In this document: positions 30,881 to 47,423 of the stretch, in pieces
Layout of the letters: every line of letters begins with the position of its first letter
Position numbering within the stretch: the stretch's first letter is position 1
Source of the DNA: Methanolobus sp. WCC4
Lineage (GTDB): Archaea > Halobacteriota > Methanosarcinia > Methanosarcinales > Methanosarcinaceae
Direction: 5' to 3'
NCBI RefSeq assembly: GCF_038022665.1
Contig: NZ_CP150629.1
Coordinates: forward strand, 2,772,480-2,836,479
Length of the DNA stretch: 64,000 nt
Made by a program: the position numbers and the translations under genes
Notes under the pieces: generated by a model
What the model was told of the DNA's origin: nothing
The model's input: the letters and a program-made list of their open reading frames with translations, nothing else
Database searches by the model: none

Positions 30881-30913
30881 AGCAATTATAACTTACTAGG
30901 ATGTTGGCACATC

Positions 30914-31486: not shown

Positions 31487-32010
31487 TGCCACTTTCAACC
31501 GCTATTGAGATAATCAACGACCTTAAAGAGCACTTCAAAGCAATTGATAACAATTTTGTTAAGATCATCGATGAGAAAGAGACCGAGATGATCAGAACAG
31601 GCATGCATAAGACACAGATAGCTTATGCACTGGCCGACAGCAGCCTGCAGATAGTCAACGCAATGACCACAGATACAACTCACAGACTGCTTCTTGAAAT
31701 GGGAATTCTTGATAATGTCGACATGACAGACGAAGAAACGGAAATATGGGGAGAAACTGTCACAAAGGCAGAAGAGACATTTAAAAAGTGGGAAATACTC
31801 CACTTAAAAAATGATGCTGAGAAGCTACTTTTCAAAACCTGTAAAGAATGGATGCATGATAATAATAAAAGATTGATCAAGGCCGGAAAAAGTAAGGATG
31901 AACTGGAATTGGTCAATAAGCTCTTTGACTCGATACACGAACATCCCAGGCACGTTAAGAGCCTTGTGAGCATTTGCATGAAAGTAGATATGTGCGAGGT
32001 GGAAAATTGA
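31486..32010 (+). CDS. Unknown 174-residue all-helical protein
   Basis: Starts in a TAATG overlap with GGTGG as ribosome site. Predominantly helical and acidic (ATTIEIINDLKEHFKAIDNN-like start, KTCKEWMHDNNKRLIKAGKS in the middle). No motif recognised. Translationally coupled to its neighbours. Confidence 0.62.
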   Translation: MPLSTAIEIINDLKEHFKAIDNNFVKIIDEKETEMIRTGMHKTQIAYALADSSLQIVNAMTTDTTHRLLLEMGILDNVDMTDEETEIWGETVTKAEETFKKWEILHLKNDAEKLLFKTCKEWMHDNNKRLIKAGKSKDELELVNKLFDSIHEHPRHVKSLVSICMKVDMCEVEN

Positions 32011-32228
32011 ACACCTCCAACAAGCAACTTTTTAAAATTAATCAACTGGTATGGTACAAAAACCAAGTATGGAAAATAGCGGACCATTGGAAACCTGAAA
32101 ACAGCGACATGCACCTTTATGCACTATGGTCTCAAGACGAAAAAACCGAGGTTGATGGATGGATACCACAGCCAGAATTAAAAAAATATCAAATACACGC
32201 ATTAGGATTTAGCAGAGCAGATTATTAA
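32007..32228 (+). CDS. 73-residue SH3-like small protein
   Basis: The TTG start (32007) overlaps the upstream TGA (TTGA) with gaggtgg before it; a longer reading from 31974 would overlap the upstream gene by 37 nt. Segment INQLVWYKNQVWKIADHWKP suggests a small beta-barrel (KOW/SH3-like). Role unknown. Confidence 0.55.
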   Translation: MNTSNKQLFKINQLVWYKNQVWKIADHWKPENSDMHLYALWSQDEKTEVDGWIPQPELKKYQIHALGFSRADY

Positions 32229-32244
32229 TTTTTCAGGTGATAAA

Positions 32245-32514
32245 ATGACAGACGGAAATGATCTTTTATTGAATGGAACAGAGAAAACCGACATAATAAA
32301 AGAATGGAATGATACTGTAAATCTGCATGTAAATGATGTATGGATTGGATTAGTAGACCTTGAAACAACAAGAGAGAAAGGCAACTATGCTTTTTTTAAA
32401 TATGTCAAGGAAATAAAGCAAACCAGCGGATCACTTGATATATTTATAGAGATACCCGAGTGGATAGCAGAGATGGACCAGGAAGAAAAGGACAAGGCAG
32501 GAGTGGGAAGATGA
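32245..32514 (+). CDS. Unknown 89-residue acidic protein
   Basis: Ribosome site ggtga upstream of the ATG. Acidic, with VNDVWIGLVDLETTREKGNY in the middle; no TM. Ends in an ATGA overlap with the next gene. Not recognised. Confidence 0.55.
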   Translation: MTDGNDLLLNGTEKTDIIKEWNDTVNLHVNDVWIGLVDLETTREKGNYAFFKYVKEIKQTSGSLDIFIEIPEWIAEMDQEEKDKAGVGR

Positions 32515-32915
32515 TAACATTAGGCCAAACTCCCAGAATAACCCTTTTAAAACTTGTCTTTGAAATGCCTTCGGAAGAAATCAAACGATATCTTTTAGAC
32601 TATCTCAGCCAGGAAGAACAAACCGAAATAAAAAGAATAGCAAGAGAAGCAAGAACCAATGAAAAAAACAAGCTATTCCAAGATATCAAAGGATTCCAGG
32701 ACATACCTGAAGAAAGACAAATTGAATTTGTAAAGGCAGCTGTCAGTTATGCAATTGCTCAAGGTGGTGCAAGTGCTGCCAATCAGAAAATAATCAGTGT
32801 GGAACAATGCCAGGAAGATATTAGAAAATACGGTCCAACTGCATTAAGAATGCATTTGATGCATGGATTTACACCAGGATATCAATTAATCATCAATGGT
32901 AGATACGGATACTGA
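32511..32915 (+). CDS. Unknown 134-residue helical protein
   Basis: Start chosen at the ATG overlapping the previous TGA (ATGA); a longer in-frame reading from 32460 lies inside the neighbour. Helical, charged: MPSEEIKRYLLDYLSQEEQT, later AVSYAIAQGGASAANQKI. Not recognised. Confidence 0.58.
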   Translation: MITLGQTPRITLLKLVFEMPSEEIKRYLLDYLSQEEQTEIKRIAREARTNEKNKLFQDIKGFQDIPEERQIEFVKAAVSYAIAQGGASAANQKIISVEQCQEDIRKYGPTALRMHLMHGFTPGYQLIINGRYGY

Positions 32916-32942
32916 TATATACCAGTGTGCAAAGGTGATACT

Positions 32943-33092
32943 ATGGCATCATGGAAAGGATCCGTATCTCTACCCAAAGAACTGAGAGAAAGAGTAGACA
33001 AGTACAACAAAGAAAACCCTGCAAGGAAACTTAATTTAAGTGCGATACTTCAGGCAGGAGTTGAAGAAATCTTAACAGAAGAAGGTTATTGA
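32943..33092 (+). CDS. 49-residue ribbon-helix-helix (CopG/Arc-type) regulator
   Basis: MASWKGSVSLPKELRERVDK begins with the N-terminal strand and first helix typical of RHH proteins; the second helix is LNLSAILQAGVEEILTEEG. Such dimers insert a beta ribbon into the DNA major groove, often at short palindromes. The 18-bp palindrome at 30863-30880 at the head of this operon is its probable target, giving negative autoregulation (inference). Ribosome site aaaggtg 6 nt upstream. Confidence 0.75.
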   Translation: MASWKGSVSLPKELRERVDKYNKENPARKLNLSAILQAGVEEILTEEGY

Positions 33093-33095
33093 AAT

Positions 33096-33254
33096 ATGGT
33101 TAATCGTCGTGTACAATGCCCGGATAGTTTTAAAAGCGGTACTTGCAGATTCATGAACACTGCATATATACAGAAAAGAAATGATGAAGGCAAGCTATCA
33201 CTTATCAAAATAGGATATTATTGTACTGAATGTGGTAAGTTTACACCATTGTAA
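33096..33254 (+). CDS. 52-residue zinc-ribbon-like protein
   Basis: Three nt after the RHH gene. Cys residues at CPDSFKSGTC and CTECG form a likely four-Cys zinc site; ends GKFTPL. Last gene of the rightward operon. Confidence 0.6.
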   Translation: MVNRRVQCPDSFKSGTCRFMNTAYIQKRNDEGKLSLIKIGYYCTECGKFTPL

Positions 33255-33556
33255 TAGACTACAGATATCCACAGTCTTAGACCTCTCTGCAGGGAAGTAA
33301 TAGACTAACCTGCAGATTTTTTCCTCGGTCCCATTCGGGAAACTGGGTCTACCTGAAGATAGACCGAATTACTTTTTTACCTTTAACACTTTGTTGGCAT
33401 TGCTGCCTGCCGATGTGCCAACGTCCGAGACAGTTATTTTAATTAACTGTTGGCAGGTAGCCAATTATCCTTTTTGTTTTTCATCGGGATCAGTGGTGGA
33501 GTTCTTATCACCCCCTGTAACTTCACACAACCGCATAATTTCAACAAATTCATCAA
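33255..33556. terminator. Convergent intergenic region with terminator hairpins
   Basis: No gene is seen. Stem GGTCTA (33346-33351) and TAGACC (33360-33365) followed by a T-run at 33371-33377 suits rightward termination. A second hairpin (gttggca/tgccaac, about 33393-33421) and T-rich tract at 33317-33322 lie nearby. Right and left operons end here. Confidence 0.55.
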
Positions 33557-33997
33557 TCAGGCATCAATGTATGTCACGTTCTCTTTTGATGTCTCAACGA
33601 CCGTCTGAGCAGCCACGGAGACAGTATCTATCGTACCGTCCAGGTCAGATACTGCGTTGTACAACATCTGGACCATGAAGAGTCTGCCATCGCCCAGGGT
33701 GTAAGCATATGCAATGTCTATAGCTGAGAGCAGACCAAGTATAATGATGACAGCAGCCAACAAAGTTGTGATATTTGACCGGATAGCCATCTCATACAGG
33801 GTCTTCATCTTCTCGGATATCGCCTGACACAGGTAAACTAATACGACATAGGTGTAGATCTTCCAAATTGACAACTGAATAACTGTGAGGTCAACAGATG
33901 TTCCCAGAACATCAACTAAAAAGGGAATCAGGTCATGCCTGACGATGACAGCCAGGACGACCCATGAAGCAAAGAATATCTGCCGGAAAGTGACCAT
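33557..33997 (-). CDS. Four-TM small membrane protein
   Basis: About 146 residues from the ATG five bases after the upstream TGA; a TTG at 34021 would overlap the neighbour. Hydrophobic helices at roughly 5-25, 35-60 (IWKIYTYVVLVYLCQAI) and 75-100 (TTLLAAVIIILGLLSAIDIA), with a polar C terminus. Last gene of the leftward operon; probable virion or assembly membrane protein. Confidence 0.6.
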   Translation of the reverse strand: MVTFRQIFFASWVVLAVIVRHDLIPFLVDVLGTSVDLTVIQLSIWKIYTYVVLVYLCQAISEKMKTLYEMAIRSNITTLLAAVIIILGLLSAIDIAYAYTLGDGRLFMVQMLYNAVSDLDGTIDTVSVAAQTVVETSKENVTYIDA

Positions 33998-34001
33998 ATA
34001 A

Positions 34002-34349
34002 TCATCTCTTGCTGGAAGCAAGGTTCTTCATGGTATTGTATGCACCCTGCTTGCTATAGCCTCTATTCATGAGTTTTGCCATACCAAGTCTGAAGCCACG
34101 GAGAGAAATTCTTTTACTGGATTTCTTACCGGAAGAACCGAAAAATTCGTTAATGCTGCGATTCTTGCCATATCCCGGCTTTTTGTTAGGTGCCTTCTTT
34201 TCTTTCTTTTTCAAATATTGCAACCGCCTGTGATAAGTGGCCTTAGTTATGTTACCTTCTTTCCAGTCCTCTTTTAGCTGGTTCATCTGAACACGATAAT
34301 CGTCTTTTGAACCAGGAACAGGTCGATAGACCCTTTTACCTTTTACCAT
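34002..34349 (-). CDS. Very basic 115-residue protein, probable DNA-binding virion or packaging protein
   Basis: Lys/Arg throughout (RRLQYLKKKEKKAPNKKPG; KKSSKRISLRGFRLGMAK), no TM, ends NLASSKR. Start at the ATG (34349), three codons inside a possible TTG start. Basic small proteins in archaeal membrane viruses condense the genome (for example VP2-type proteins of spindle-shaped viruses), but no family is recognised. Confidence 0.58.
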   Translation of the reverse strand: MVKGKRVYRPVPGSKDDYRVQMNQLKEDWKEGNITKATYHRRLQYLKKKEKKAPNKKPGYGKNRSINEFFGSSGKKSSKRISLRGFRLGMAKLMNRGYSKQGAYNTMKNLASSKR

Positions 34350-34359
34350 CAATATCAAC

Positions 34360-34542
34360 TCACTTTATTTGCCGTGCTCCGGCAGTAACAATAATTCCAC
34401 CAACGATGAGGACCGCAGGTCCTACGTCTTCAGGCAAGAAGGTCACAAGTCCCGTTGAAACCATAATCGCACCAAATACCATGACAGTATCTCTCATGAC
34501 CTTCTTGCTGTTCTTTTCGATGTCAGTCCTATCAAGGTTCAT
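34360..34542 (-). CDS. 60-residue two-TM hairpin protein
   Basis: Charged N terminus (MNLDRTDIEKNSKKVMRDT), TM1 VMVFGAIMVSTGLVTFL, turn PEDVGP, TM2 AVLIVGGIIVTAG, basic end ARQIK. The hairpin of two short TMs is the architecture of spindle-shaped-virus coat proteins and of many small membrane-virion proteins; assignment is inference. ATGA overlap with the upstream gene. Confidence 0.58.
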   Translation of the reverse strand: MNLDRTDIEKNSKKVMRDTVMVFGAIMVSTGLVTFLPEDVGPAVLIVGGIIVTAGARQIK

Positions 34543-35123
34543 TCCTTTTTCCTCCGGGCTAGCACAATACCCACGAGCAGGACCAACACGAGAGATATAA
34601 CAGCCGAGCCGGTAAGAACGGCTGCGTTAAAGTCAATTTCATCGACAGGACTTTCGCTGTCATCAGGTTCATCGTAATCAGCAGGGTCGATAACCGTTAT
34701 GGACAATTCAAAGGTGTTCGGGCTGTCACGGATGGAGTCATAACGTCCATCTGCTTCTTTGACCTCCATTGTTATCTCGACTTCGTACTGTTCACCGACA
34801 TCACCATAGACAGTCAGAGGGAACGTTCCTTCGACAGTTTCATCGGCTGAGATGGAAAACGGTGTCAGGTATTTATCATCCCTGTCTCGCTGGGAACCGT
34901 CCCAGTCTATCGCGATCCTGGCACTGGTGTCTTCAGGTATGTAGGGTTCCCAGTAGTCATCATAGGTATATTTGTACGGTATCTGCACAGTTTCACCGGC
35001 AGGCAGTTCTACTGACTGATCACCGGTAAGCATGGTGAACTCTGTTGATGTGAGCAGCATGAACAGTGCCACAAGCAGAAAACCGACCATGACCGGATTG
35101 AATTTACTTGTCATCTTTCTCAC
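34539..35123 (-). CDS. Secreted, C-terminally anchored 194-residue surface protein
   Basis: Signal-like N terminus (VMVGFLLVALFMLLTSTEFT), beta-rich ectodomain (about 35-150: ETVQIPYKYTYDDYWEPYIP, then TFPLTVYGDVGEQYEVEITM), acidic linker YDEPDDSESPVDE, and C-terminal TM ending RRKKE. It overlaps the upstream gene by 20 nt. Architecture of a virion surface or spike protein; not recognised. Confidence 0.6.
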   Translation of the reverse strand: MRKMTSKFNPVMVGFLLVALFMLLTSTEFTMLTGDQSVELPAGETVQIPYKYTYDDYWEPYIPEDTSARIAIDWDGSQRDRDDKYLTPFSISADETVEGTFPLTVYGDVGEQYEVEITMEVKEADGRYDSIRDSPNTFELSITVIDPADYDEPDDSESPVDEIDFNAAVLTGSAVISLVLVLLVGIVLARRKKE

Positions 35124-36333
35124 CTTTCTTGTAGAATATCAACAGGACTATCAGTAAGAGTATCAGGAACAATGGCAGGCCGAAGGCAACAACAGCAACC
35201 AGACCAAGTGAAACTGCCAATTCAACCAGTAATTCTGCTATACTCTTACCATCCTCGTCATCACCATCAAGGATATCCTCAATGATATCTTCAGGATCAG
35301 GGACAGAAGGAATATCATTATCCGGGTCATCATAGCCACTGGAACCATCCTCTTTTGTTTCATCGGTGATACCATAGATAATGTAGTTGCAGGTATTGAT
35401 GTCAGAATCAAGTTCTACCTCGCCGTCATCATAGTCATAGCCGAACTGTGCCGGATAAGCATCATTGAAAAATGTTTCATAGTCATCAGCAAGTACCTTT
35501 ACAGAATATCGGCCAAATGGGAGGTTTTCAAAGGTCTTCGTACCGTCACTGCCGAGATAAACGGACTGTTGATACACCTGACCATCTTTGAGCAATTGAA
35601 CGGAACAGGGTAAAGCCTTCAGGTTGTCAAGGACCGTTACGGTCAGGGTTGCAGTGGTAGCACCTGGATCAGGTATAGTGACATGAACAAAAGCCCTGTC
35701 AGTATCATAGAACACCTGATCGGTTGGTATCGGAGAATCTATACCGAGTGATTCCTGAACAGTATAATCATACGTGTTACCAGCCTCGATACCCCACCCA
35801 CTTGGATAATATCTCAGTGTGGTGGTCCACGTTTCCCCATAGTCCCAGTTTCCAGAAACTGTCTGTTTCGTCTTGTAGGAATCAAGTAGACCGAAATCAG
35901 TATCATCGGATTCAGGCAGGCCATTGTACATCACAAGTCTTGCCTTTGTGACCTCCGGGTATTTGTTCCAAATACTATCAGGGAAATACAGGTCATTCTG
36001 CTGTTTGAAGGTTATTTCCTTATATTCAGATAGATAGTCAATGGTAAAACTGATGTCGTTGGATTGAGAGGAACCTTCTATACCATAGATGTTCATTGCA
36101 GAGCCGGTATCCTTGAAATAATACCATGGATAGTCAATGACGTGCATCCTGACACCCTGCTCATCCGTGACCATCTTGTGAATAGGACCAAAAAGGCCAT
36201 CACGATAAACTATGTCTACCTCGGTATCGCCTGAAGGAACATAAGACTGTACAGAAAGAGAAGGCAGCACAATGGATGCCACTAAAAGGACAAGTAGTAA
36301 TTTTACAATTCCCTGACGCTTTTTTGCATCCAT
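35104..36333 (-). CDS. Large secreted, C-terminally anchored spike-type protein
   Basis: 409 residues from the ATG at 36333, preceded by GGAG and one base from the upstream stop; a 43-residue upstream extension overlaps the neighbour and lacks support. Signal peptide (IVKLLLVLLVASIVLPSLSV), a ~230-residue beta domain, a carboxypeptidase-regulatory/PEGA-like module (about 245-310: KALPCSVQLLKDGQVYQQS and FGRYSVKVLADDYE), acidic linker, TM, basic tail KKGEKDDK. Together with the 194-residue neighbour it looks like a two-component virion surface complex (inference). Confidence 0.62.
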   Translation of the reverse strand: MDAKKRQGIVKLLLVLLVASIVLPSLSVQSYVPSGDTEVDIVYRDGLFGPIHKMVTDEQGVRMHVIDYPWYYFKDTGSAMNIYGIEGSSQSNDISFTIDYLSEYKEITFKQQNDLYFPDSIWNKYPEVTKARLVMYNGLPESDDTDFGLLDSYKTKQTVSGNWDYGETWTTTLRYYPSGWGIEAGNTYDYTVQESLGIDSPIPTDQVFYDTDRAFVHVTIPDPGATTATLTVTVLDNLKALPCSVQLLKDGQVYQQSVYLGSDGTKTFENLPFGRYSVKVLADDYETFFNDAYPAQFGYDYDDGEVELDSDINTCNYIIYGITDETKEDGSSGYDDPDNDIPSVPDPEDIIEDILDGDDEDGKSIAELLVELAVSLGLVAVVAFGLPLFLILLLIVLLIFYKKGEKDDK

Positions 36334-36334
36334 G

Positions 36335-36547
36335 TTAATTCTCCAGTGCGAATTTACCGGCAATGAGCAATTCGACCGAATTAAGGACGGAATCACCAAG
36401 GAGATTAGCCATATCGCCCACAATTGGGACATTGGCAACTGTACTATCGGCAGCCAGTTCAAGCAGGACGGCTACAATGAAAACACCAAGCAAGAATTTT
36501 TCCTGCCGGTCTATCTTACCTTCACTTTTCTTCTTATCTGTCATCAT
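36335..36547 (-). CDS. 70-residue small membrane protein
   Basis: Start set at the MM pair overlapping the CPBP stop. Charged N terminus (MMTDKKKSEGKIDRQEK), TM FLLGVFIVAVLLELAADS, then a second amphipathic segment NLLGDSVLNSVELLIAGKF. Similar size and charge layout to the other small proteins of the operon; possible coat component. Confidence 0.55.
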   Translation of the reverse strand: MMTDKKKSEGKIDRQEKFLLGVFIVAVLLELAADSTVANVPIVGDMANLLGDSVLNSVELLIAGKFALEN

Positions 36548-37188
36548 ATGACCCCCAGAATGGTAAGGGAACCAGCTATCACTACTACATTCCATGAAGT
36601 GTGAAGACCGGCTGAAGCAAGGGGATATCCTTTGTCCCAGATGTACTGCATGGCAAGTGCAAAGAAGAATGCAGTTATCAGGAAAGTTATGTTAAAATCG
36701 GAAACCCAGACATGGAACAGGGAAAAGGCAATTGCTGAGAACAATCGAGCGTTGCCTTCGGTCATCTTCATCTTGCCTGTCTGGAAGGCTTTAACGATGG
36801 CACCCCTGAAGGTGAGTTCTTCGTTCAGGCCGATGATCGTCTCAGCGATTATGAGAAGGCCAAGTGTACCAAAACCTGCAAGATTGCTTGACCCACTTAT
36901 ACCAAATTCGGAGAATATGAAAAGACCGGCAACGAAACCGACACCCCACTGTATCAGGCCATCTAAAAGGCTGATATCATAGAGTGGGTTCTTCTGGTCG
37001 AGTACGCTGAACGAGAATGACATCATCAGGAAGTAAACCATGAACATCATGGTTATAGAATCATCGTGCCAGAGATGGTCAGCAGAGACAAGGAAGAAGA
37101 GCATACCCACTACCAGAAAAGCGGCTATGCTTACCCTGTCAAGTCTCTTCAGGGAGAATACTTCACGATAGTAGGATGTGATACTCAT
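36544..37188 (-). CDS. CPBP-family intramembrane protease (CAAX/ABI-type)
   Basis: 214 residues, six or more TM helices. The glutamate-type protease motifs are present: NEELTFRG (EExxxR), FSLFHVW and SAGLHTSWN (HxxxN/B). In cells such enzymes cleave prenylated or membrane proteins or act in bacteriocin immunity. Here it lies inside the block encoding the probable virion membrane proteins and overlaps both neighbours, so processing of virion proteins or superinfection immunity is possible (inference). Catalytic residues look intact. Confidence 0.8.
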   Translation of the reverse strand: MSITSYYREVFSLKRLDRVSIAAFLVVGMLFFLVSADHLWHDDSITMMFMVYFLMMSFSFSVLDQKNPLYDISLLDGLIQWGVGFVAGLFIFSEFGISGSSNLAGFGTLGLLIIAETIIGLNEELTFRGAIVKAFQTGKMKMTEGNARLFSAIAFSLFHVWVSDFNITFLITAFFFALAMQYIWDKGYPLASAGLHTSWNVVVIAGSLTILGVI

Positions 37189-37355
37189 GCAGCAAGACCC
37201 TCGATTACTATGCCGATGACCAGCCAGAGAATGAAACTCAAGACGACGAATTCGACGGGTTTGACATGCTCTTCTTTAAAACCAATTTCTAAGATCAGGT
37301 CTTCTACTGGATTCTTAGAGGTTTTATTTTTAGTAACAGTTCTTTTCTTACTCAA
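37185..37355 (-). CDS. 56-residue single-TM protein
   Basis: TTG start overlapping the end of the upstream gene (TTGAGTAA) and stop overlapping the next ATG (ATGA), so it fills the gap exactly. Basic N terminus (MSKKRTVTKNKTSKN), C-terminal TM FVVLSFILWLVIGIVIE ending GLAA. Tail-anchored small protein; coat-type candidate. Confidence 0.55.
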   Translation of the reverse strand: MSKKRTVTKNKTSKNPVEDLILEIGFKEEHVKPVEFVVLSFILWLVIGIVIEGLAA

Positions 37356-38688
37356 CGACGATCGCCCCCGACCAATCTACTATGTCAAAACCGATCATAT
37401 CAGATAATCCAAGGTGGATACCTGAAGCGATTGGAATACGGAGCCAGCCACGAGTTGCCATCTTGAAGATACCAGGAACATGTTCCGCTTCATAGGACTC
37501 TTCGACCCCATCGACAACCTTCTCGACATCCTCGGATATCTGCTCGAGGTCTTCGGTTATCTTCTCGACAAGCTCATCAATTGTATTGATAGGACCATCA
37601 GAAGGAGATGACGAATCATTATCGTCATCATCGTTTTCATCGGATGGAGATGAATAGGAACCACCTGAAGAACTATCGTCGCCACTATCAGAAGGTGGTA
37701 TATAAGGATTGTAAATTGTTGATCCAAAAGGTGCTGCTTCGATTATTCCACCAGAATCAATACAAAGGAATCCACCACCCTTACATGTTGCATATACCAA
37801 ACCATCGTCAGCAACCACAACGTCTAAAAACCAATTTCTATAATCATTATATGGTTCTGCACCGGCACCCGAATATGTCAATAAATTCGTGATAGAAGTA
37901 GTTGACGAATTACGATACTCAACTACACTTAAAGGGGATGAACTGAACGATTTTGCCATCTCATAAACATAATCACCATTAGTCAATTGAATAGCATGAG
38001 CGGTATCGTCTGGATAAGTAGATGTATATGTTTTCAAAGTATCAGCAACAGATGAAGATGTTAGATTATATTCAATTAAACTAATATCTGAATTAGAAGT
38101 AGAAAACATACCAGCAAGAATCAAACCATCTTGGTATAGTGACAAACGATAACTTGGCTCACTTGAATACAAAGCAGGCAAACCAGCAGTTATCTGAGAA
38201 GATGTATAATAAGGAGATGACAATTTGAATATTTTTTTATTAGAACCCGATGCATATATATTATCGTTGGCATCAACAACAATATCGACAACACCGGCAT
38301 CAAGAGTATAAAGTGTTTCAAAGTATGAACTGTCGGTATAATAATCAAGTTCAGATGTGAAACGATCAACCATCGTAACATTACCATTAGAAAAACCCAA
38401 AACAATGTTACCATCCATCGTCAATCCAACGTCTACCAAACCGGTCATGTTAGTTATCAGCAATTCCTTCGTGGCATCTTCAACCGGTAACGCTGGATAA
38501 AAAGCCCATACCTCATCTGTGCCCTCATTTGTATAGATGATTCTAGAATCATCATAATCATAGACCATATCAACAGCAGCTTCCCCGCTAAAATATGTCA
38601 AATATGATACTCCACCGCCTGTCGAATAACCGGCTGATGCAACCGGAACAAGCATCGTCAACAAAACTAAAAACATGACATTCTTCAA
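37348..38688 (-). CDS. Secreted beta-propeller-like surface protein
   Basis: 446 residues. Signal peptide (VMFLVLLTMLVPVASA). Residues about 20-320 carry repeated strand patterns (GLVDVGLTMDGNIVLGFSNG; AGVVDIVVDANDNIYASGSN; VVADDGLVYATCKGG) like a WD40/YVTN propeller. An Asp/Ser-rich linker (about 330-365), a short coiled coil (DELVEKITEDLEQISEDVEK) and an amphipathic C terminus follow. No classical TM at the end, so it may be tethered through partners. The codons are more AT-rich than in neighbours. A receptor-binding or surface virion protein is inferred. Confidence 0.6.
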   Translation of the reverse strand: MKNVMFLVLLTMLVPVASAGYSTGGGVSYLTYFSGEAAVDMVYDYDDSRIIYTNEGTDEVWAFYPALPVEDATKELLITNMTGLVDVGLTMDGNIVLGFSNGNVTMVDRFTSELDYYTDSSYFETLYTLDAGVVDIVVDANDNIYASGSNKKIFKLSSPYYTSSQITAGLPALYSSEPSYRLSLYQDGLILAGMFSTSNSDISLIEYNLTSSSVADTLKTYTSTYPDDTAHAIQLTNGDYVYEMAKSFSSSPLSVVEYRNSSTTSITNLLTYSGAGAEPYNDYRNWFLDVVVADDGLVYATCKGGGFLCIDSGGIIEAAPFGSTIYNPYIPPSDSGDDSSSGGSYSSPSDENDDDDNDSSSPSDGPINTIDELVEKITEDLEQISEDVEKVVDGVEESYEAEHVPGIFKMATRGWLRIPIASGIHLGLSDMIGFDIVDWSGAIVVE

Positions 38689-38723
38689 ATCACCAGCTCC
38701 TATCTTCCAGTAATTGAATCAAC

Positions 38724-38756
38724 AAAAAAATGGAAGGGAGAGGGGATAATCCTCTC
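38724..38756 (-). terminator. Terminator after the 255-residue structural gene
   Basis: On the minus strand, arms GAGAGG and CCTCTC (plus-strand 38738-38743 and 38751-38756) are followed by a seven-T run (38724-38730). It directly follows the stop at 38755, isolating this gene's transcript from the rest of the operon. Confidence 0.6.
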
Positions 38757-39522
38757 AGATAGCTTCTATCCTGATAAGGTTCACAGTGAACTTTTCTTCA
38801 TCAGCACCTTCGACATTTACAGTGACCGGGATGCTGCTGAGGTCATCCATCTTGATGACACCACCAGTTGAAACATTCCAGGACACTTCTATGCTTCTGG
38901 TACCGGTTGAAGTTGTCCATTCGTACTTCTCACTGTCTTCCTCGCCATCGACATAGACCACCGGATTGTCGGTGTCGGTTGTCCTGACGACGATTGGATA
39001 GTATTCATCGCCGGATGCATCGGCAAGACCAGATGCAGCGGCTGTGATAAGTGAATGACCGACATCCTGGGTGGATGAGAAACTACCGTCGTCCTCGGCT
39101 GTGATGGTCATGACGAACTCAATGGATTCGTCGTCAGATGGTGTTGTCAGTACACCGGTATTGGTGAAGTTGAGAAGTTCGACAGAGTTACCTGCTGTAT
39201 CCTTTGTCTTCAGGAGGAAGGTGGATGTTGAACCATCGTCGGATACTTCAGCATCGACAGGAATTGATATCACACCATCGTCCTTATCGAAGTTATTATC
39301 AGCATCCGCAAGGGTGTTATTATCTGCGACGACACTAACGAAAGCACTGTCAAGTGCCATATCTACGCTCATTACCGATCCCGCTTCGGTTGCCTTTGAC
39401 AGGTCGATATGTCCTGTATAGACACCGGCAGCAAATAGACCAACAACGATTATTACCAGCCATGCCTTACCAGACAGGCCAAAATAAACTGTTTCTTCAT
39501 CTTTGTTTCCTTTAGGTGACAT
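38755..39522 (-). CDS. Signal-anchored beta-rich protein, leading candidate for the major virion protein
   Basis: 255 residues from the ATG giving MSPKGNKDEETVYFG, with an AAAGGAG ribosome site; a 29-residue upstream reading has no site. One N-terminal TM (AWLVIIVVGLFAAGVYTGHI), then a ~215-residue Asp/Ser/Thr-rich, Cys-free ectodomain of regular beta strands (AGSVMSVDMALDSAFVSVVA; VEVSWNVSTGG-like ending EEKFTVNLIRIEAI). Uniquely in the operon it has its own spacing on both sides: a TATA-like element near 39566-39577, a strong ribosome site, and a terminator right after the stop. This suggests very high expression. No family recognised. Confidence 0.6.
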   Translation of the reverse strand: MSPKGNKDEETVYFGLSGKAWLVIIVVGLFAAGVYTGHIDLSKATEAGSVMSVDMALDSAFVSVVADNNTLADADNNFDKDDGVISIPVDAEVSDDGSTSTFLLKTKDTAGNSVELLNFTNTGVLTTPSDDESIEFVMTITAEDDGSFSSTQDVGHSLITAAASGLADASGDEYYPIVVRTTDTDNPVVYVDGEEDSEKYEWTTSTGTRSIEVSWNVSTGGVIKMDDLSSIPVTVNVEGADEEKFTVNLIRIEAI

Positions 39523-39621
39523 AAGTACACTCCTTTTAGAGTTCTTACACCTAATTGAACATGAGATAATAAATACTAGAAGTGTGACAGAATGGTGCCA
39601 AACTGTCACAGCATAGCGATT

Positions 39622-40259
39622 TTAAGAAGAAGATTTAAACTGACTATCTATCAAAGGGAACAGTTCTTCGAACAGTCCTCGAGGTATCCTTGCACGTTCT
39701 ACGGATCCTGGCAAACCCTGCGTACCAGTCTTGCTACCTCTTGGAGCACGTTCATGATGACAATCAGGATTGCCATTTCTACATGACTTTGAATTCCAGT
39801 CTCGTAGGTTGGTCCAGACCCATGTAGGTTTAGCTCGGGTATCCCCATACTGGCAATACCAGACATTGTGTCTGATGGCTTCGTAAGAGGAAAGGAACCA
39901 CGAAAGGCGACCGTGTGGATTCTCAATGAAGTAGATAGCTTCTGGATGGTCAGCTATCACACGCTTGCAGACATCGACTATCTGCAAGGAGATATGAGCA
40001 TCAAGGGTCTTAGGTCTGCGGTGGCAGTCCCAGTGAGTATTCCCTGAACCCATGCTGAAGCACCGGCATTCAGGAGACATCCATATGATATCGGCTTCGG
40101 CAAGTTTCCGTTCCAGAATATCAGGGAACGGCTTTGTGAGGTCGTGGACCAGATCGGGATGATGGATAGGGTCATTATCCACTGTGAACGTGGAATGACC
40201 AAGTATCCTGGCATATCCGAGAAGGATTCATCCCCGGAGAACAATTCAACGGTATTCAT
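39622..40259 (-). pseudogene. Phage-type C5-cytosine DNA methylase, frameshifted
   Basis: The reading starts MNTVELFSGDESFSDM (motif I, SAM site) from 40259 and is lost after about 16 codons. One base shift restores ARILGHSTFTVDNDPIHHPD and continues to 39622 with SPECRCFS (the PC motif region, here with SPEC), FIENPHGRLS (ENV-like motif), WTNL and the C-terminal ARIPRGLFEEL. The total of about 212 residues is normal for phage-borne C5 methylases. The break lies near 40205-40215 and looks like loss of one base. It is a pseudogene, a sequencing error or a programmed shift. Its ATG overlaps the previous stop. Confidence 0.75.
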
Positions 40260-40423
40260 TATTCATCCACCAGTTCAAAATCTGATTCATTCTCAATAGG
40301 ACAAACAAGGTCAGGATCATCCAATCTGACGAACTGCGTATAGCAACAATATTTAGACCTATCACCAGTATCACGATTCACATAAGTTGCAGTATGTCTG
40401 CAATGAGGACAATGTTTATTCAT
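40259..40423 (-). CDS. 54-residue zinc-binding protein
   Basis: MNKHCPHCRHTATYVNRDTG followed by KYCCYTQF and a later Cys; a CxxC...CC zinc-finger look. Its TAA overlaps the methylase ATG and its start overlaps the next upstream gene by eight nt. Confidence 0.55.
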   Translation of the reverse strand: MNKHCPHCRHTATYVNRDTGDRSKYCCYTQFVRLDDPDLVCPIENESDFELVDE

Positions 40424-40610
40424 CTTTCACTACCCCAATTCCCGATATATTGACGTCTGGCAAAGGACAATGCGAAGGAATAACATGTGGCAAACAACAA
40501 CCACTCGCTCCAAGTTCCCTATCATTTTTCGTACAATAAGGAACCCTCACTGACATATACCGTCCAAATGGACAAGAAACACAACTTCTAATCTCAAGAA
40601 CTCTTACCAT
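40416..40610 (-). CDS. 64-residue Cys-rich zinc-type protein
   Basis: Three Cys pairs: SCVSCPFG, YCTKN and GCCLPH with SHCP; a probable multi-zinc small protein. Three bases from the Hel308 stop. Function unknown. Confidence 0.55.
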   Translation of the reverse strand: MVRVLEIRSCVSCPFGRYMSVRVPYCTKNDRELGASGCCLPHVIPSHCPLPDVNISGIGVVKDE

Positions 40611-40613
40611 ATT

Positions 40614-42767
40614 TCACACCTTTACCTTCATTTTGTTCTTCATGGAGATATCATCAAAGACCTTGATAGCGAGGTTAGGACCTATCAAGGCGGTGATGGT
40701 ATCCATTCCGGCAGTTTCCACATCGTCGATGTTCTGGAAACCGGATTCGTAGAGGACACGGGCACGTGAGCGACCGATTCCCCGGATATCTACGAGGTCC
40801 TTGAGTTCTGGGCGTATTCCGTACTGTAGTCGCTTCTCAAGAAGTGGTGTGACATCTGGCCATTTGATGTCAGGGAGGGTCGAGAGGACTGATATAGCGT
40901 GCATGAGCCAGCAGGCTATTCCTGCAAAGACATGGACATCACCTTCGCCTACGTTGTATTTGCGAGTGATGTATTCGACCGAGCGTTCGTTTATCCAGTC
41001 AAGGACGAGCACGGCAGTCTTTACTTCGGCAAGGAAGAACTCATAGTCAGTGGCCTTGAAGGGACTGGGGATATCGACAAGCTCATCTTTGTGCTCGATC
41101 ACAAAATCATTGAGTCCTTCATAGTCCTTTGAGCGCAGGTAGAGAAGTCTCATATCGGGCGTACGGCAGACAAGATGCAGTAATGTGAGGTCGGTGACGT
41201 ATCGGGCTTTTTCAAGACCTTCGACGATGAGAGCAGCCGACAGAGGGTCGATATAGAGGGTAGTTACCATCTTACCGAGTGAGGTAGGAACAAATCCTTT
41301 ATCGCCCTGGTCGTCGAGCATTCGGTGTTCTACAAGGAAATCAAGGCATTCATCAACTATTGCCTTCAGGTCATCAGTACCGTTCTGATGAGCGAAGAAG
41401 GTCGAACCCATGAAAGACATGAGTCCGTCACGAGTACCGGCTATACCGTGTACTATCGTGGATAACACATGAGTACGCAGGGCGTTCTCGGTGCCGAGCT
41501 TGGAGGTTATGTCTTCGGCATCTGCATGTATATAGTTGGCAAAGAGTGACTTGACCTCATCTTCTGACCTTGCCATGATCACGGATTCACCATAGGGGTC
41601 AAGATGAGGACGACCGGCACGGCCTGCCATCTGTTTATAATCGAGTACCGGTATGGGTTCCATACCGAAGTTAGGGTCATATCTTTTGTAGTTCCTGACA
41701 ATAACCCTTCTGGCAGGCAGGTTAAGACCGGCTGCAAGGGTAGGGGTACTACATATGACCTTGATGAGGTTGTCCTTGAAACCGTTCTCGACTATCCGTC
41801 GATGTTTGACGTTAAGACCGGCATGATGGAAGGCTACGCCGTTCCTGACACACTCGGCAAGACTATATGTGATATCGGACTCGCCAAATTCTATTATCTG
41901 AAGTACAAGGTCCTCAAGTGCTTTACTGGTTTCAGGATCAAGGGTTTCAGCTACCACAGGTCCGGCTTTTTTAGCAAAGCCCACACAGTTACGACGGCTG
42001 CTTTCAAAGACAAGGCACTGACCATCGTCTGACAGAGTATCGAGCAGGACGTTGAGAGAGCTATCGTCTGTCCTGGCTTCTATTGCCTTGAAGGAGTTAC
42101 GAAAATCGATACCACTGCCATAGAACACACCTTCGTGCAGTGTTGTGGGTCGCCATTCACTGATAACAAGGCCAGCATCGAGCCAGTCAGCTATATCACC
42201 GGCATTACCTACTGTTGCAGAGAGAGCTATTATCTGGCATTCAGGGTTAAGTTCCATGAGCTTTGTGAGTGTGATCTCAAGGGTAGGACCACGGTTAGCA
42301 GAATTGAGCAAATGGACCTCATCGACGACAATTGTTGTGATATCCGACATCCATGATGTCCGATTGCGTAGGAGAGAGTCGGTTTTTTCTGACGTAGCTA
42401 CTATGATATCGTTGGAACCCAACCATTCATCACGATAATCGAAGTCACCTGTTGATATGCCTACCCGGATACCATTCTCTTTTATCCCTATAGAGGAAAA
42501 TTCCCGGAACCTGTTATACTTCTCGCTTGCCAGTGCCCGAAGCGGTACTATGTAGAGAGCTTTGCCACCTTTTGAGATAGACTTGAGCATTGCCAGTTCT
42601 GCAAGCAAGGTCTTCCCGGATGCAGTGGGTATGGCTGCAAGTACGTTCCAGCCATTAAGAAGGCCGCTTTCTATGGCTTCAGACTGTGGAGGATAGAGTT
42701 CTTCTATACCAGAATCTATGTAGAAGTTCCTGACATCTGCAGGAAGGTCTAGAGACTTAATCAGCAT
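40614..42767 (-). CDS. Hel308-type superfamily 2 DNA helicase carried by the element
   Basis: 717 residues from the ATG giving [16 protein letters not shown]. Motif [10 protein letters not shown], motif Ia [10 protein letters not shown], motif [10 protein letters not shown] (DEVH), motif III SATVGN, motif [17 protein letters not shown]-like, motif [11 protein letters not shown]. The winged-helix/ratchet region is present, as is the C-terminal helix-hairpin-helix [19 protein letters not shown]. Hel308 unwinds forked DNA 3'-5' at stalled forks in archaea. Hosts keep a chromosomal copy, so an element copy likely serves its own replication. It overlaps the UVR-motif gene by 11 nt. Complete domains and no frame breaks. 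Confidence 0.9.
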
Positions 42768-43047
42768 TGGAATCACCACAATTGAAATATCCACGAATAT
42801 CATCCAATATACGAGAAACCCTAGCAAGTTCATCTATACGTCTACGGAGATCCCCGGCACGTTCGAAATCACCGTCTTCACATGCAACAATTAATAGAAA
42901 CAACAATCTTTTCCTTTCACGACCAACAGACTGCAGAACACTATTATAATCATCTAGAGTTACACTATCAAAGATAGAATCCGTTAGAGGAGAACCATCA
43001 TAAACTATAGCAGATTCAGAATCATAATCACATTCCATGATAACCAC
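42757..43047 (-). CDS. 96-residue protein with a UVR motif
   Basis: The C-terminal half has [20 protein letters not shown], the UvrB/UvrC interaction (UVR) helical hairpin. The N-terminal half is unrecognised. UVR motifs mediate protein-protein contact with UvrB, UvrC or Clp partners. Coupled to Hel308 by an 11-nt overlap, so a helicase adaptor or host-repair decoy is possible (inference). Host uvrB lies 18 kb away. Confidence 0.6.
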
Positions 43048-43395
43048 CTAAAAGATATTCTGTTCCATGACGAGACATATTGTTCGAAGATTGCTGAAGG
43101 TTGCCAGCAGACCTATCATCATTACGGAGTTCTTTGTGAATCGCCAGTATCCAGGATAGTTCCTACACATCCGATAAACGATGTAGAACAATACCATGAA
43201 CAGTGCTTTCAGGAATACCAATGCGATATACCCGAAATGGTCGAAGATGCAGCAAAGGACCGGATTGCCTTCATAGAACATACCTGTCCACAGGGCAGTG
43301 ATTGTGGTTGCAGTATCACCGTAAATGAATAATACAAATATGAACCATATCTCACTGAGGAAATCACTGTTTTTGATTTGTGCCAGCAGGTACAT
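43048..43395 (-). CDS. Three-TM membrane protein (DUF5658-like)
   Basis: About 115 residues; the start shown is the second Met (MYLLAQIKNS), since the first (43407) lies deeper in the upstream gene. TMs around residues 15-32, 45-75 and 90-108. The segment GDTATTITALWTGMFYEGNP resembles the DUF5658 opening (D-x-x-T-T, then E-x-N-P). Function unknown. Abuts the UVR gene. Confidence 0.55.
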   Translation of the reverse strand: MYLLAQIKNSDFLSEIWFIFVLFIYGDTATTITALWTGMFYEGNPVLCCIFDHFGYIALVFLKALFMVLFYIVYRMCRNYPGYWRFTKNSVMMIGLLATFSNLRTICLVMEQNIF

Positions 43396-43630
43396 CTTCA
43401 CCACCATTACCGAATATCATTTTTTTGAACTCTTCCACTGCTTCAAGACCTAGGTCCCTCTTCTCACGGTGTCGGGGAGGTATTTCACCAAGCTCTACGA
43501 GATGATTAGTGTAGAATTCCACAGACCTGATTATTGCATCAGTACCGGTTATGTTCTTAGATACAGCTATCCTGTCAATATCCTCGTGTGTGCCGTCTGG
43601 AAGACGGACATGTTTTCTATCATTCGCCAT
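43364..43630 (-). CDS. Small RHH-like DNA-binding protein
   Basis: 88 residues from the Met giving MANDRKHVRLPDGTHEDIDR; an upstream start would add ten. The pattern KHVRLPDGTHEDIDRIAVSK then GTDAIIRSVEFYTNHL matches ribbon-helix-helix (strand, helix, helix) followed by an acidic tail. A possible regulator of the leftward operon. Confidence 0.6.
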   Translation of the reverse strand: MANDRKHVRLPDGTHEDIDRIAVSKNITGTDAIIRSVEFYTNHLVELGEIPPRHREKRDLGLEAVEEFKKMIFGNGGEDVPAGTNQKQ

Positions 43631-44381
43631 CGTCAGACCACCCATCGAAATTTTCATCATATTTTGGATTATTAACTTGCTTAATTACCGGAGCAACTGA
43701 CTCAATGCGCTTCAAAGATTCAACGGCAACATCGATCTTATTGTGCAGGCTGTTAAAACCGGCATGAGAGTGTACAAGGTCAACCATACGATTGAATCCG
43801 TTCTGATACGAATTCGAGAGTACTGTGTAATACTCGACCTGGGCAGAATTTATGGCAGACTCCTTATCAAGACCATTTTTAAAGCAGGAACTGACCTGAT
43901 CACCGAGCAGCACGAGCTTAGTACCGGGTCTGAATATCATACCGTGTGGAATTGAACGTGGTTTGAACTCTGTACGAATCAAGCGGTCCTGACCGACCTC
44001 TACTACATGGTCCTTCGGACAGACAATTGCGATATTTCCTTCATAGACCAGACCATCATGATTACAGCCGTTCCCATAGTAGATATTGAAAGAAAGAACT
44101 CCGGCATGTGTGCTGTGGGTGATGCCTGACCAGGAGAAGGTACCTTTCTCGGTCAGTAGCTGGGGTGACATCCTTCTGCAATAGTCCTCTATATCCTCTT
44201 CATCCTCATGAAAATGAAGGAAGAGAAGCCAGAAGCATGAACCTATGGTAGCCCATGTGATGAGCTTGTCAGTGAGTATGAGAGGAAGGTCAGCACGGAA
44301 CAGACCTATCAGACCCCAGTAGTAGGCAAGGACTGCTAATGAGATGTTCTTTCCACTGAACTCAGGTAGTTGCAGGGACAT
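43620..44381 (-). CDS. Unknown 253-residue membrane protein
   Basis: Two N-terminal TM helices (ISLAVLAYYWGLIGLF and ITWATIGSCFWLLFLHF), then a ~195-residue domain with beta strands (YGNGCNHDGLVYEGNIAIVC) and helices (SNSYQNGFNRMVDLVHSHAG). Ends in an acidic tail. Not recognised. Overlaps both neighbours. Confidence 0.58.
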   Translation of the reverse strand: MSLQLPEFSGKNISLAVLAYYWGLIGLFRADLPLILTDKLITWATIGSCFWLLFLHFHEDEEDIEDYCRRMSPQLLTEKGTFSWSGITHSTHAGVLSFNIYYGNGCNHDGLVYEGNIAIVCPKDHVVEVGQDRLIRTEFKPRSIPHGMIFRPGTKLVLLGDQVSSCFKNGLDKESAINSAQVEYYTVLSNSYQNGFNRMVDLVHSHAGFNSLHNKIDVAVESLKRIESVAPVIKQVNNPKYDENFDGWSDDGE

Positions 44382-44823
44382 CCGGTATCACCACTCCGGT
44401 ATCAAGTATGAGTTCGTCAGGAACGTTAGCAAAGATGACACAGCCTTTTGGCATCTTGAAAGGTACTGTCCTGGGCAACGGTATTACATCACCGATAACC
44501 CATCCGTAAAGTCCGGGTCGGAAGTGTCTGACATCAAGACAGTGTTCCAACTGGTAGGACATGAATATCTCAAGGGTATCGAGCTTGATACAGTCCTTTA
44601 TCTCAATGAGGGATGTGATCTCACCGAAGACAAGGTCATCGACAGATACATCGAACCCGAGTTCGTACCTGAAATAATCATATTCGTCAGGATCAGGCTT
44701 ACTAAGACTATTATACAAACCAAGATAACCACGGAAACCTGTAGGAGTGCTCCGCACTTCAATGGTTTTGTGATTACCATCGATGAGATAAGGCCATGGA
44801 CGACGGACAGCGAGGATTTTCAT
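44362..44823 (-). CDS. ASCH-domain protein
   Basis: 153 residues opening MKILAVRRPWPYLIDGNHKT, a signature of ASCH domains (PUA-related RNA-binding beta-barrel; some members hydrolyse modified cytidines). GYLGLYNS follows at about residue 33. Phages often carry ASCH proteins beside nucleotide- or DNA-modification genes; a cytosine methylase is in this operon. Role unknown. Confidence 0.72.
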   Translation of the reverse strand: MKILAVRRPWPYLIDGNHKTIEVRSTPTGFRGYLGLYNSLSKPDPDEYDYFRYELGFDVSVDDLVFGEITSLIEIKDCIKLDTLEIFMSYQLEHCLDVRHFRPGLYGWVIGDVIPLPRTVPFKMPKGCVIFANVPDELILDTGVVIPDVPATT

Positions 44824-45002
44824 TCAGAATCCTCCACTTCACGACCAGGACAATTAAACAATGAATCATAAAATGAACATGCGAAAAATCCAATTGAAAA
44901 ACCAATCAGAAATATACCGACATAAGGATATCTAGCTGCATGAAAAACACCAAACATGAAAATACCCACATTAAAGAGCAAAACAATATCATAACGGTCC
45001 AT
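44820..45002 (-). CDS. 60-residue two-TM hairpin protein
   Basis: Start chosen at MDRYDIVLLFNVG, four bases after the upstream TGA, rather than the overlapping longer reading. TM1 IVLLFNVGIFMFGVFHAA, turn RYPY, TM2 VGIFLIGFSIGFFACSFY, acidic tail. Resembles the 34360-34542 protein in design; ATGA overlap with ASCH gene. Confidence 0.55.
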   Translation of the reverse strand: MDRYDIVLLFNVGIFMFGVFHAARYPYVGIFLIGFSIGFFACSFYDSLFNCPGREVEDSE

Positions 45003-45006
45003 AAAA

Positions 45007-45312
45007 TCAGACACGCTCCGGGTAAGCATTAGCATATTCACTTTTCAACGATTCTAAATCGGAAATTATCAAATCGACTTTGCCATTGAAGCGACCTTTA
45101 GGAAGGTCCTTAGAATAAGAATGGTGGATATACCCAAGGTCATCCATATCATTCAATATCATGGTTATCTTAATCAATATCTGACTGTCAGATTCATCAA
45201 TACCCCTCAACCGATATCTGATATTGAAATAAGTGTTCCTAACAGGTTCAACAAGAACAATGGCAAACAAAGCAGTAGCCACGACAAGGGCAACAAAACT
45301 AAGGTCTATCAT
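45007..45312 (-). CDS. 101-residue protein with N-terminal TM
   Basis: TM FVALVVATALFAIVLVEPV near the N terminus, followed by a ~75-residue charged cytoplasmic domain (SDSQILIKITMILNDMDDLG). The helix-strand pattern recalls a small winged helix tethered to the membrane. Not recognised. Confidence 0.55.
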   Translation of the reverse strand: MIDLSFVALVVATALFAIVLVEPVRNTYFNIRYRLRGIDESDSQILIKITMILNDMDDLGYIHHSYSKDLPKGRFNGKVDLIISDLESLKSEYANAYPERV

Positions 45313-45316
45313 GATA

Positions 45317-46561
45317 TCAATCCCTCAAATCATCGTTCATGACAGGGATATCCATGCTAAGGTCGGATGGTCCCATTGGTGGATATGGTGAAGGAGGATG
45401 TTGTGGATAGTCACCGTCATCGTCTTTATCCTTGACAATACCCCAATCATACCTCTTATGATAAGCAACACCAAGACCAACTACAACCCAAATACCCCAG
45501 AAACGGATGTACCAAGGTTCTTCATCTTCTTCATCTTCTTCTTCGTCATCATCTGCTTTTTTATACACGACTTCTTCTTCAGGCTGCTCATTATCATCTG
45601 ACTTCAGTTCAGACACTGCAACCTGAAGGTCTGTGACGGAATCTGTTAAAGTGTTGATATCTTCCTGTAATGCATCCACATCTGCGATACCTGGATCGGA
45701 GGAAACTTTCAGGCCGTTGAGTTCTGCGAACTCTACCAGATAGGCAGGCATTTCTTCAGGATCGGATGTTGTGTAGGTGGTGTCTTCTGATGCAAGAACC
45801 ACTTCAAAGGTCAGGTCCTTTGAATCGATGACATCACGAGTATCCCAGTCGATAAGGTCTATGGTGACACGGTTTGTACCAAGCTGGAAGTAGACACCGC
45901 TTATCCACTGTTCGACCTCAGATGAGCGACCGGCTTTAACAAGGACATCATCATCGAAGTCAAGGACATTGTTAGATATTTCCCATCTGAATTTATGGGA
46001 AACGGTGTCATCGTTCTCTATATCAAATACAACCTTGACATCCTTATCAAGTTCGACCGTTTTAATGTTCATGACATCTGACGTAGTTTCTATGTGTACA
46101 TCCTCCAGGCTGACATACCATGATATGTCTTCAGAATCGGATGTGTCATCATATTCAGGCTGAGTGAAGCCAAGATAAAGTATTTCAGAGGGATTGTTAG
46201 AATAGTCGAATGCACGAAACCCGGCAACGTGATAACCGGCTTCAAGGTCTGTTGCAGTGTAGTTAAAAGAAGTTGTTCCAGTGGCAGTTACCCATGACCT
46301 TTGGTCAATTTTGACCTCTACTCTGGATATCCCGGCTGATACATTGGCATCGTTGGAGGAATCCCACGCAGTACCGGAGAGCTTTGCAGTGTCATCATCA
46401 AAATTGTTGATGTTTCCGAGAATATTAGGTGACACTGTGTCGGATGCTGAAGCTACTGGAAGTGTAAGGGTCAGAAGCACAAAGAGACTTGTGTAGATGA
46501 CAGCCAGAAAAACGATGTTTCTAGCGAAGGTATCACGTGAATTATTTGTGAGGTCTATCAT
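45317..46561 (-). CDS. Large surface protein with Ig-like domains, coiled coil and C-terminal TM
   Basis: 414 residues. Signal/anchor (FLAVIYTSLFVLLTLTLPVASA), an Ig-like domain (about 45-140: SRVEVKIDQRSWVTATGTTS), a CARDB-like beta domain (about 170-275), a coiled coil (ALQEDINTLTDSVTDLQVAV), an acidic linker, a TM (WGIWVVVGLGVAYHK) and a Pro/Asp-rich tail. A membrane-anchored, coiled-coil stalk protein; spike-type virion candidate. Start in an ATGA overlap. Confidence 0.62.
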   Translation of the reverse strand: MIDLTNNSRDTFARNIVFLAVIYTSLFVLLTLTLPVASASDTVSPNILGNINNFDDDTAKLSGTAWDSSNDANVSAGISRVEVKIDQRSWVTATGTTSFNYTATDLEAGYHVAGFRAFDYSNNPSEILYLGFTQPEYDDTSDSEDISWYVSLEDVHIETTSDVMNIKTVELDKDVKVVFDIENDDTVSHKFRWEISNNVLDFDDDVLVKAGRSSEVEQWISGVYFQLGTNRVTIDLIDWDTRDVIDSKDLTFEVVLASEDTTYTTSDPEEMPAYLVEFAELNGLKVSSDPGIADVDALQEDINTLTDSVTDLQVAVSELKSDDNEQPEEEVVYKKADDDEEEDEEDEEPWYIRFWGIWVVVGLGVAYHKRYDWGIVKDKDDDGDYPQHPPSPYPPMGPSDLSMDIPVMNDDLRD

Positions 46562-46926
46562 GCTTCAACCTCACCGAGATTACATTCAGGAGCATAGTCG
46601 CTGCATCGGCAGGAGTTCTGCCAGAGACTGAGTGAGCCATCAGGTGATATCTTGCAATCATAGGCAGCACCACATTCACAGGTGACAGTTCCAGCCCGGA
46701 AGGGTACACTTAATTCCCCTTTGCAGATAACACATTCAAGAGTACGGATATCACCGAAGTAAGATATCTTCGATTCTGAAGATGGACGTTCTCGATGCCA
46801 GGGTGTTCTGCGAAGGGATACATTATCATCTTCACGAATGACGTTGTATTCAGCACCACAGTCACATTCTACTACTTCATCACCGGGGAAGACATCCACT
46901 GAGCGACGGCAATCATGACAGAGCAA
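46558..46926 (-). CDS. Double zinc-ribbon protein
   Basis: 122 residues with two similar modules, MLCHDCRRSVDVFPGDEVVE...CDCG and ECVICKGELSVPF...CECG, plus a Cys-rich C terminus (SCRCSDYAPEC). Internal duplication of a rubredoxin-like ribbon. Unknown function. Confidence 0.6.
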   Translation of the reverse strand: MLCHDCRRSVDVFPGDEVVECDCGAEYNVIREDDNVSLRRTPWHRERPSSESKISYFGDIRTLECVICKGELSVPFRAGTVTCECGAAYDCKISPDGSLSLWQNSCRCSDYAPECNLGEVEA

Positions 46927-46937
46927 TTTAATGCTGA

Positions 46938-47099
46938 TCAGGATACCAACCCCATAGCTGCAAGGGCTTTTTCATTTGTGCTCAATTGAGCGTTAATCTG
47001 TCGATACTCAATGAGATCATCAGCATCTTCAAGACGCTTGACAAGTCGGTCGTGCTCTTCTAAGAGGTTGACCTTGTATTGGGTCATGCCTGGAATCAT
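46938..47099 (-). CDS. 53-residue coiled-coil protein
   Basis: Helical, with heptad-like Leu spacing: KVNLLEEHDRLVKRLEDADD, ends AAMGLVS. Start four bases after the upstream stop, end 11 bases before the next gene; alternative Met four codons inside. Not recognised. Confidence 0.5.
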   Translation of the reverse strand: MIPGMTQYKVNLLEEHDRLVKRLEDADDLIEYRQINAQLSTNEKALAAMGLVS

Positions 47100-47102
47100 G
47101 AG

Positions 47103-47387: not shown

Positions 47388-47423
47388 AACACCACCATCC
47401 GAGAAAAAAGGAGGAAATTAGGC

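Follow-up and report, generated by a model that had tools for sequence, protein, structure and literature searches.

A gene with private, conserved transcription signals encoding a candidate abundant surface or coat protein in an integrated element of a methanogen

A gene for a 255-aa protein, set within a 16.7-kb block of closely packed genes in an integrated element of a methanogen, has its own promoter-like and terminator-like signals, and these are kept in a divergent element of a congener. We give about an even chance to the reading that its product is abundant, carries an N-terminal membrane anchor and serves as a coat or surface protein of a particle that is enveloped and non-lytic. Few viruses of methanogens, and of the Methanosarcinaceae especially, have been described; should the 255-aa protein prove to coat a particle, an archaeal virus lineage that lacks recognisable genes for a capsid or for packaging would be added to them, and were it no more than a lysogen surface protein, it would still mark a new integrative element. 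The finding also pinpoints one gene to tag, to delete and to seek in proteomes.

The integrated element and its relative in a congener

The window, by which we mean the whole stretch of 64,000 nucleotides that was analysed, corresponds to positions 2772480-2836479 of a single-contig genome of 2.85 Mb. The genome contains an mcr operon and the host is therefore a methanogen, probably a member of the Methanosarcinaceae; its McrA scored best against PDB chains 1e6y and 8gf5, which we take to be Methanosarcina enzymes. A tRNA-Glu(CTC) gene lies at 28680-28756, and its last 27 nt are repeated perfectly at 50561-50587. The att repeats flanking the element at this tRNA gene, together with the integrase, identify an integrated mobile element, either a provirus or an integrative plasmid, in which a few plus-strand genes are followed by a minus-strand block (33557-50291). 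Its anatomy is provirus-like, with tRNA-Glu att sites, an integrase, a module of membrane and surface proteins and a very basic protein of DNA-binding type. The features of the element are as follows.

28729..50587, strand not applicable: whole integrated element, 21.9 kb between 27-nt perfect att repeats
28729-28755: left att repeat, 3' end of tRNA-Glu(CTC)
29091..30152, plus strand: tyrosine integrase (Pfam PF00589, E 1.9e-15)
33557..34000, minus strand: multi-TM protein, 147 aa (from hydropathy; homologue in G001)
34002..34346, minus strand: very basic protein, 114 aa, net +25, DNA-binding type
34360..34542, minus strand: 60-aa protein with two hydrophobic segments
34539..35114, minus strand: exported protein, 191 aa, N-terminal hydrophobic segment and C-terminal TM
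35104..36330, minus strand: spike-like protein, 408 aa, N-terminal hydrophobic segment and C-terminal TM
36544..37188, minus strand: CPBP/Rce1-like intramembrane protease, in both elements (Pfam PF02517, E 1.7e-9)
37348..38688, minus strand: exported protein, 446 aa, 3' of the terminator, codon adaptation low
40614-42833: Hel308-type helicase
45317..46561, minus strand: acidic exported protein, 414 aa, N-terminal hydrophobic segment
47424..47975, minus strand: soluble protein, 183 aa, top codon adaptation in both elements
48009..49856, minus strand: 615-aa probable replication protein, homologues adjoining an integrase in G023 and G025
50561-50587: right att repeat, perfect copy, 21.8 kb from the tRNA-Glu copy

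One congener (G001) carries a distant, syntenic relative of the whole element, inserted at the same tRNA-Glu gene. Common to the two are the integrase, three small early genes (79-87% identical), the membrane or exported proteins of 147, 60, 191, 408, 70, 56 and 446 aa, the CPBP protease, and the 255-aa, 253-aa, exported 414-aa, 183-aa and 615-aa proteins. Two small, adjacent basic proteins in G001 (L003 11728-12303) stand at the place of the basic protein of the window (34002-34346); tblastn missed them, and they were thus paired only by position and by a common C-terminal pattern, approximately F..GMA..M..G.SK..AY. The helicase and a dcm-like remnant are without counterpart in the G001 element. 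This remnant consists of two overlapping frames (39622-40259) that look like a frameshifted gene for a single dcm-like DNA methyltransferase, the name being given by eye because there was no Pfam match. The helicase was considered as a defence gene and rejected, as the many defence models that match it recognise nothing beyond a generic helicase of Hel308 type. In two further congeners (G023 and G025) the 615-aa protein has homologues that adjoin an integrase and are without any other element genes, an arrangement which suggests a role in replication. In two congeners the homologues (L011 4798-6690 and L013 6373-8265; 30-31% identical) lie together with an integrase close by CRISPR-cas genes, and these loci resemble a minimal integrated plasmid.

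Transcription signals and codon adaptation

The first-pass annotation had singled out the 255-aa gene as isolated within its operon and strongly expressed, with a TATA-like element, a strong ribosome site and a terminator hairpin followed by a T-run. The isolation is real: alone among the genes of the block it is flanked by clear non-coding DNA at both ends, with 66 nt separating it from the gene downstream and 99 nt from the coding remnant upstream (64 nt and 166 nt for the G001 homologue). In the rest of the block neighbouring genes overlap or are at most about 36 nt apart, and two apparent gaps of 159 and 176 nt hold small ORFs of 56 aa (kept in G001) and 53 aa. The features of the unit are as follows.

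38704..38736, minus strand: second hairpin, sequence-conserved, CTTCCA-T7...TGGAAG, adjoining the ribosome site (GGAG) of the next gene
38724..38730, minus strand: T7 tract, the sole minus-strand T7 in the block
38738..38756, minus strand: terminator hairpin 1, GAGAGG-ATTATCC-CCTCTC
38755..39522, minus strand: CDS, 255 aa, proposed abundant surface/coat protein (ORF; ATG 39522, stop 38755)
39415..39465, minus strand: predicted transmembrane anchor, codons for residues 20-36 (hydropathy 2.23 over 17 residues)
39530..39535, minus strand: Shine-Dalgarno AAGGAG, ordinary strength
39567..39575, minus strand: TATA-like box TATTTATTA, 53 nt 5' of the ATG
39583..39610, strand not applicable: inverted repeat with 8-nt perfect arms, TGTGACAG / CTGTCACA, just 5' of the TATA-like box

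On the 5' side, the TATA-like element was found again as TATTTATTA at 39567-39575 and has a counterpart in G001, TATTTATT, 56 nt before the ATG of the homologue; TATTTATT occurs 53-56 nt before the ATG in both elements. At the place of the inverted repeat G001 carries one of other sequence, GTCCGTAC...GTACGGAC, and this repeat is a candidate for either the terminator of the upstream unit or an operator. The ribosome site is not the strong one that had been claimed, its anti-SD pairing of -7.6 kcal/mol being mid-range among 26 element genes. The upstream neighbour of the gene differs, a dcm-like remnant in the window versus a ribbon-helix-helix-like gene in G001, and it speaks for a private transcription unit that the promoter- and terminator-like signals are kept in two divergent elements despite this.

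On the 3' side, a GAGAGG/CCTCTC stem followed by TTCCATTTTTTT agrees with the terminator described at first pass. G001 has an equivalent hairpin of other sequence in which the pairing is kept, followed by an identical TTCCATTTTTTTG. The order is the same in both elements: a hairpin directly at the stop, an identical CTCCCTTCCATTTTTTTG and then CTGGAAGATAGGAG, which contains the ribosome site of the following gene. The hairpin changed in sequence while its pairing was kept, which points to function and not simply to common descent, in what is a comparison of two sequences that allows no formal covariation test. Hairpin 1 together with the second hairpin gave a z of -2.8 against shuffles. Between the window and G001 the 3' spacer shares 82% identity over some 71 nt. 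Only four stretches came out of a DNA-level search of the 6.8-kb region in G001, of which the spacer is one, and in 60-nt blocks it equals the best coding block (46/60). The ribosome site of the 446-aa gene comes directly after the second hairpin (38704-38736; 1841.6 kb of G001), and in the predicted fold of G001 its GGAG pairs with CTCC, so that translation of this downstream gene may also be held down.

Codon adaptation was scored against the ribosomal-protein and mcr genes of the same genome, with the same reference set applied to G001, and z values are relative to synonymous resampling from the element's own codon pool. The 255-aa gene has a CAI of 0.651, which places it at the 95th percentile among 55 host ORFs, and the G001 homologue has one of 0.659, with z values of +2.7 and +3.2 respectively. 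With some 24 genes of the window tested, one z of 2.7 is modest on its own, and it is the replication in G001 that carries weight. The 446-aa gene directly past the terminator is the worst adapted of the block (z -3.4 in the window and -3.5 in G001), and we propose that its product is a minor or rare component. The claim of strong expression thus has the support of conserved private signals and of codon adaptation in two orthologues, and is to be read as a prediction from sequence. It should be noted that the 183-aa gene scores above the 255-aa gene in both elements (z 3.0 in the window and 4.4 in G001), and high expression alone is therefore not enough to identify the 255-aa protein as the coat; the 183-aa protein, which is only 27% identical between the two elements, is a second candidate for an abundant protein. 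The 414-aa gene is level with the 255-aa gene in the window (z +2.8) and falls to +0.5 in G001.

Taken together, we propose that transcription would start at the 255-aa gene's own TATA-type promoter and would largely stop at the hairpin/T7 terminator, with the genes behind it fed by some readthrough or by a separate start; the outcome would be much 255-aa protein relative to the downstream surface proteins. In filamentous phages the major-coat gene VIII is followed by a terminator that precedes the minor gene III. The element would resemble this arrangement in having a strongly expressed coat-type gene, a terminator and a weakly expressed surface-protein gene, whereas protein size, sequence and host domain are unrelated, so that the analogy is one of gene-dosage control only. 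One gene of a polycistronic block that has retained its own promoter and terminator through deep divergence would represent a testable instance of dosage control in an archaeal element.

The same signature could be given by a cell-surface protein expressed in the lysogen. Prophage moron genes often have their own promoter and terminator, and such anatomy would allow the 255-aa protein to be made while the element is silent and to act on the lysogen surface, for example in blocking superinfection or changing adhesion, and not in a particle. We consider this unlikely, though deserving of serious attention: the promoter- and terminator-like signals are independent of the operon, the protein has a membrane anchor, and the upstream inverted repeat could be an operator. 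Morons, however, usually differ between related proviruses, whereas the 255-aa gene and the adjoining surface-protein genes are syntenic in both elements and it is the cargo around them that is exchangeable.

The 255-aa protein

The 255-aa protein has one homologue, 49% identical, in G001, the only one among 186 genomes of the order, and a phylum-wide sample of 394 genomes, which overlaps the 186, yielded no further homologue. No family match above noise was obtained in Pfam, PHROGs, NCBIfam or PDB sequences, and no relatives in IMG/VR (five queries), GTDB genome contigs (two queries) or, by tblastn, phage and plasmid records. The anchor and the Asp/Thr-rich ectodomain reported at first pass were both recovered, as one hydrophobic segment at residues 20-36 and an exterior that is rich in Asp, Ser, Thr and Val, cysteine-free and of pI 4.05. 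Positive residues before the segment in G001 suggest an N-in, C-out topology. Of three N-glycosylation sequons those at 68 and 216 recur in G001. The protein would accordingly be expected to insert by its N-terminal anchor with an acidic, possibly glycosylated domain outside. Its hydrophobic periodicity leans towards beta (z 1.3 for one homologue and 2.1 for the other). That it is unlike known capsid families holds at the sequence level; as to fold, single-sequence prediction for the full protein and for residues 46-255 gave pLDDT values of 31 and 32, too low for fold searches.

A hydrophobic segment at the N-terminus with an apparently beta-leaning domain behind it would also suit a pilin, or a component of a conjugation or secretion machine. 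The alignment, inspected by eye, revealed no K/R-G class III signal-peptide motif before the hydrophobic segment in either homologue, and the shared core has no P-loop ATPase that could serve as a type IV pilin assembly ATPase, which makes such a role very improbable.

Particle, vesicle and the closest archaeal viruses

That the 255-aa protein is a major virion protein, as first annotated, is plausible, but no recognised virion hallmark was detected in the element. Among the element proteins scanned there were no PHROG or Pfam families for capsid, portal or terminase (HK97/Caudoviricetes), nor any conjugation families. Among the GK[ST] motifs of both elements the one convincing P-loop was that of Hel308, which G001 lacks, and nothing equivalent to the putative NTPase of the pleolipovirus morphogenetic block was found. 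A core without a P-loop ATPase, and without capsid, portal or terminase matches in the proteins scanned, speaks against a capsid-first virus and against a conjugative element, and the absence of these and of conjugation families would fit budding better than pre-formed capsids or conjugation. When 64 CRISPR spacers of one congener were compared there was no match beyond 15 nt.

In anatomy the closest known systems are the pleomorphic and spindle-shaped archaeal viruses. On record in methanogens are pleomorphic proviruses (PMC10919331) and a Methanosarcina spindle virus family (PMC12451623). Like the Pleolipoviridae and Thalassapleoviridae (HRPV-like viruses and AvPV1), the element is provirus-like, integrated at a tRNA gene, comparable in size and bounded by 27-nt att repeats (PMC10919331), has membrane and exported proteins and, as we propose, a non-lytic life style. 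Unlike the Pleolipoviridae it has no detectable VP4-like or NTPase protein. For a VP3-like protein the 147-aa multi-TM protein would be a candidate, with no profile match to the AvPV1 VP3-like protein (two-sequence profiles, which are weak), and profiles of the 408-, 414-, 446- and 255-aa and other proteins had none to the AvPV1 VP4-like/spike-like proteins (hhalign with two-sequence profiles of limited sensitivity), the AvPV1 comparison yielding probabilities of at most 11%. Pleolipovirus spikes are C-terminally anchored, in contrast to the N-terminal anchor of the 255-aa protein. With His1 (Halspiviridae) the element shares a very small protein with two hydrophobic segments encoded near genes for proteins with a signal sequence and a C-terminal anchor (His1 annotation), but the element profiles did not match His1 proteins, the 60-aa protein finding none, the 73-aa two-TM ORF21 included (two-sequence profiles, weak). 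The Eurekaviridae (Methanosarcina spindle virus PQ167755) belong to the same spindle group, of which the profile comparison covered His1 only.

The lack of a virion hallmark, the many exported proteins and the combination of a probable replication protein with an integrase would also be consistent with an integrative plasmid that spreads in vesicles, like the haloarchaeal pR1SE, with the 255-aa protein as an abundant vesicle-membrane protein. Plasmid vesicles of the pR1SE type have been described (PMC10818511). This mechanism works almost like that of an enveloped particle and is hard to tell apart from it by sequence; the 255-aa and 615-aa proteins had no sequence match in plasmid records, and we regard it as improbable.

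Our preferred reading remains the enveloped particle, in which the 255-aa protein of an active element would be an abundant membrane-embedded coat or surface protein and the particle would leave the cell without lysis. In its favour, the gene travels with a block of exported, membrane and basic proteins whose mobility is marked by the integrase and att sites; against it are the missing virion hallmark, the higher adaptation of the 183-aa gene, the lack of a match among the 64 CRISPR spacers of one congener and the fact that only two copies are known. More tentatively, and with considerable doubt, the two elements may represent a so far undescribed virus family of Methanosarcinaceae-type methanogens, enveloped, non-lytic and lacking a packaging ATPase, with the N-anchored, acidic 255-aa protein, of undescribed fold, as the main protein of the surface.

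Two sets of matches to other element proteins were set aside. A weak spike-like match in another genus (G102) is surrounded by chromosomal genes and is probably a repeat-domain match, and those of the 414-aa profile elsewhere span only about 55-120 residues of the N-terminal half and look like a common Ig-like repeat; the 414-aa protein itself has, by eye, a possible coiled coil and a C-terminal hydrophobic stretch. Outside the element, just beyond the right att site, there is a fragment of a second integrase (50733-51134), whose positional counterpart in G001 (1849834-1850844) is intact. Further out, 51263-53011 encodes a repetitive alanine/lysine/aspartate-rich protein and 53480-54451 one in which a unit of about 48 residues occurs four times.
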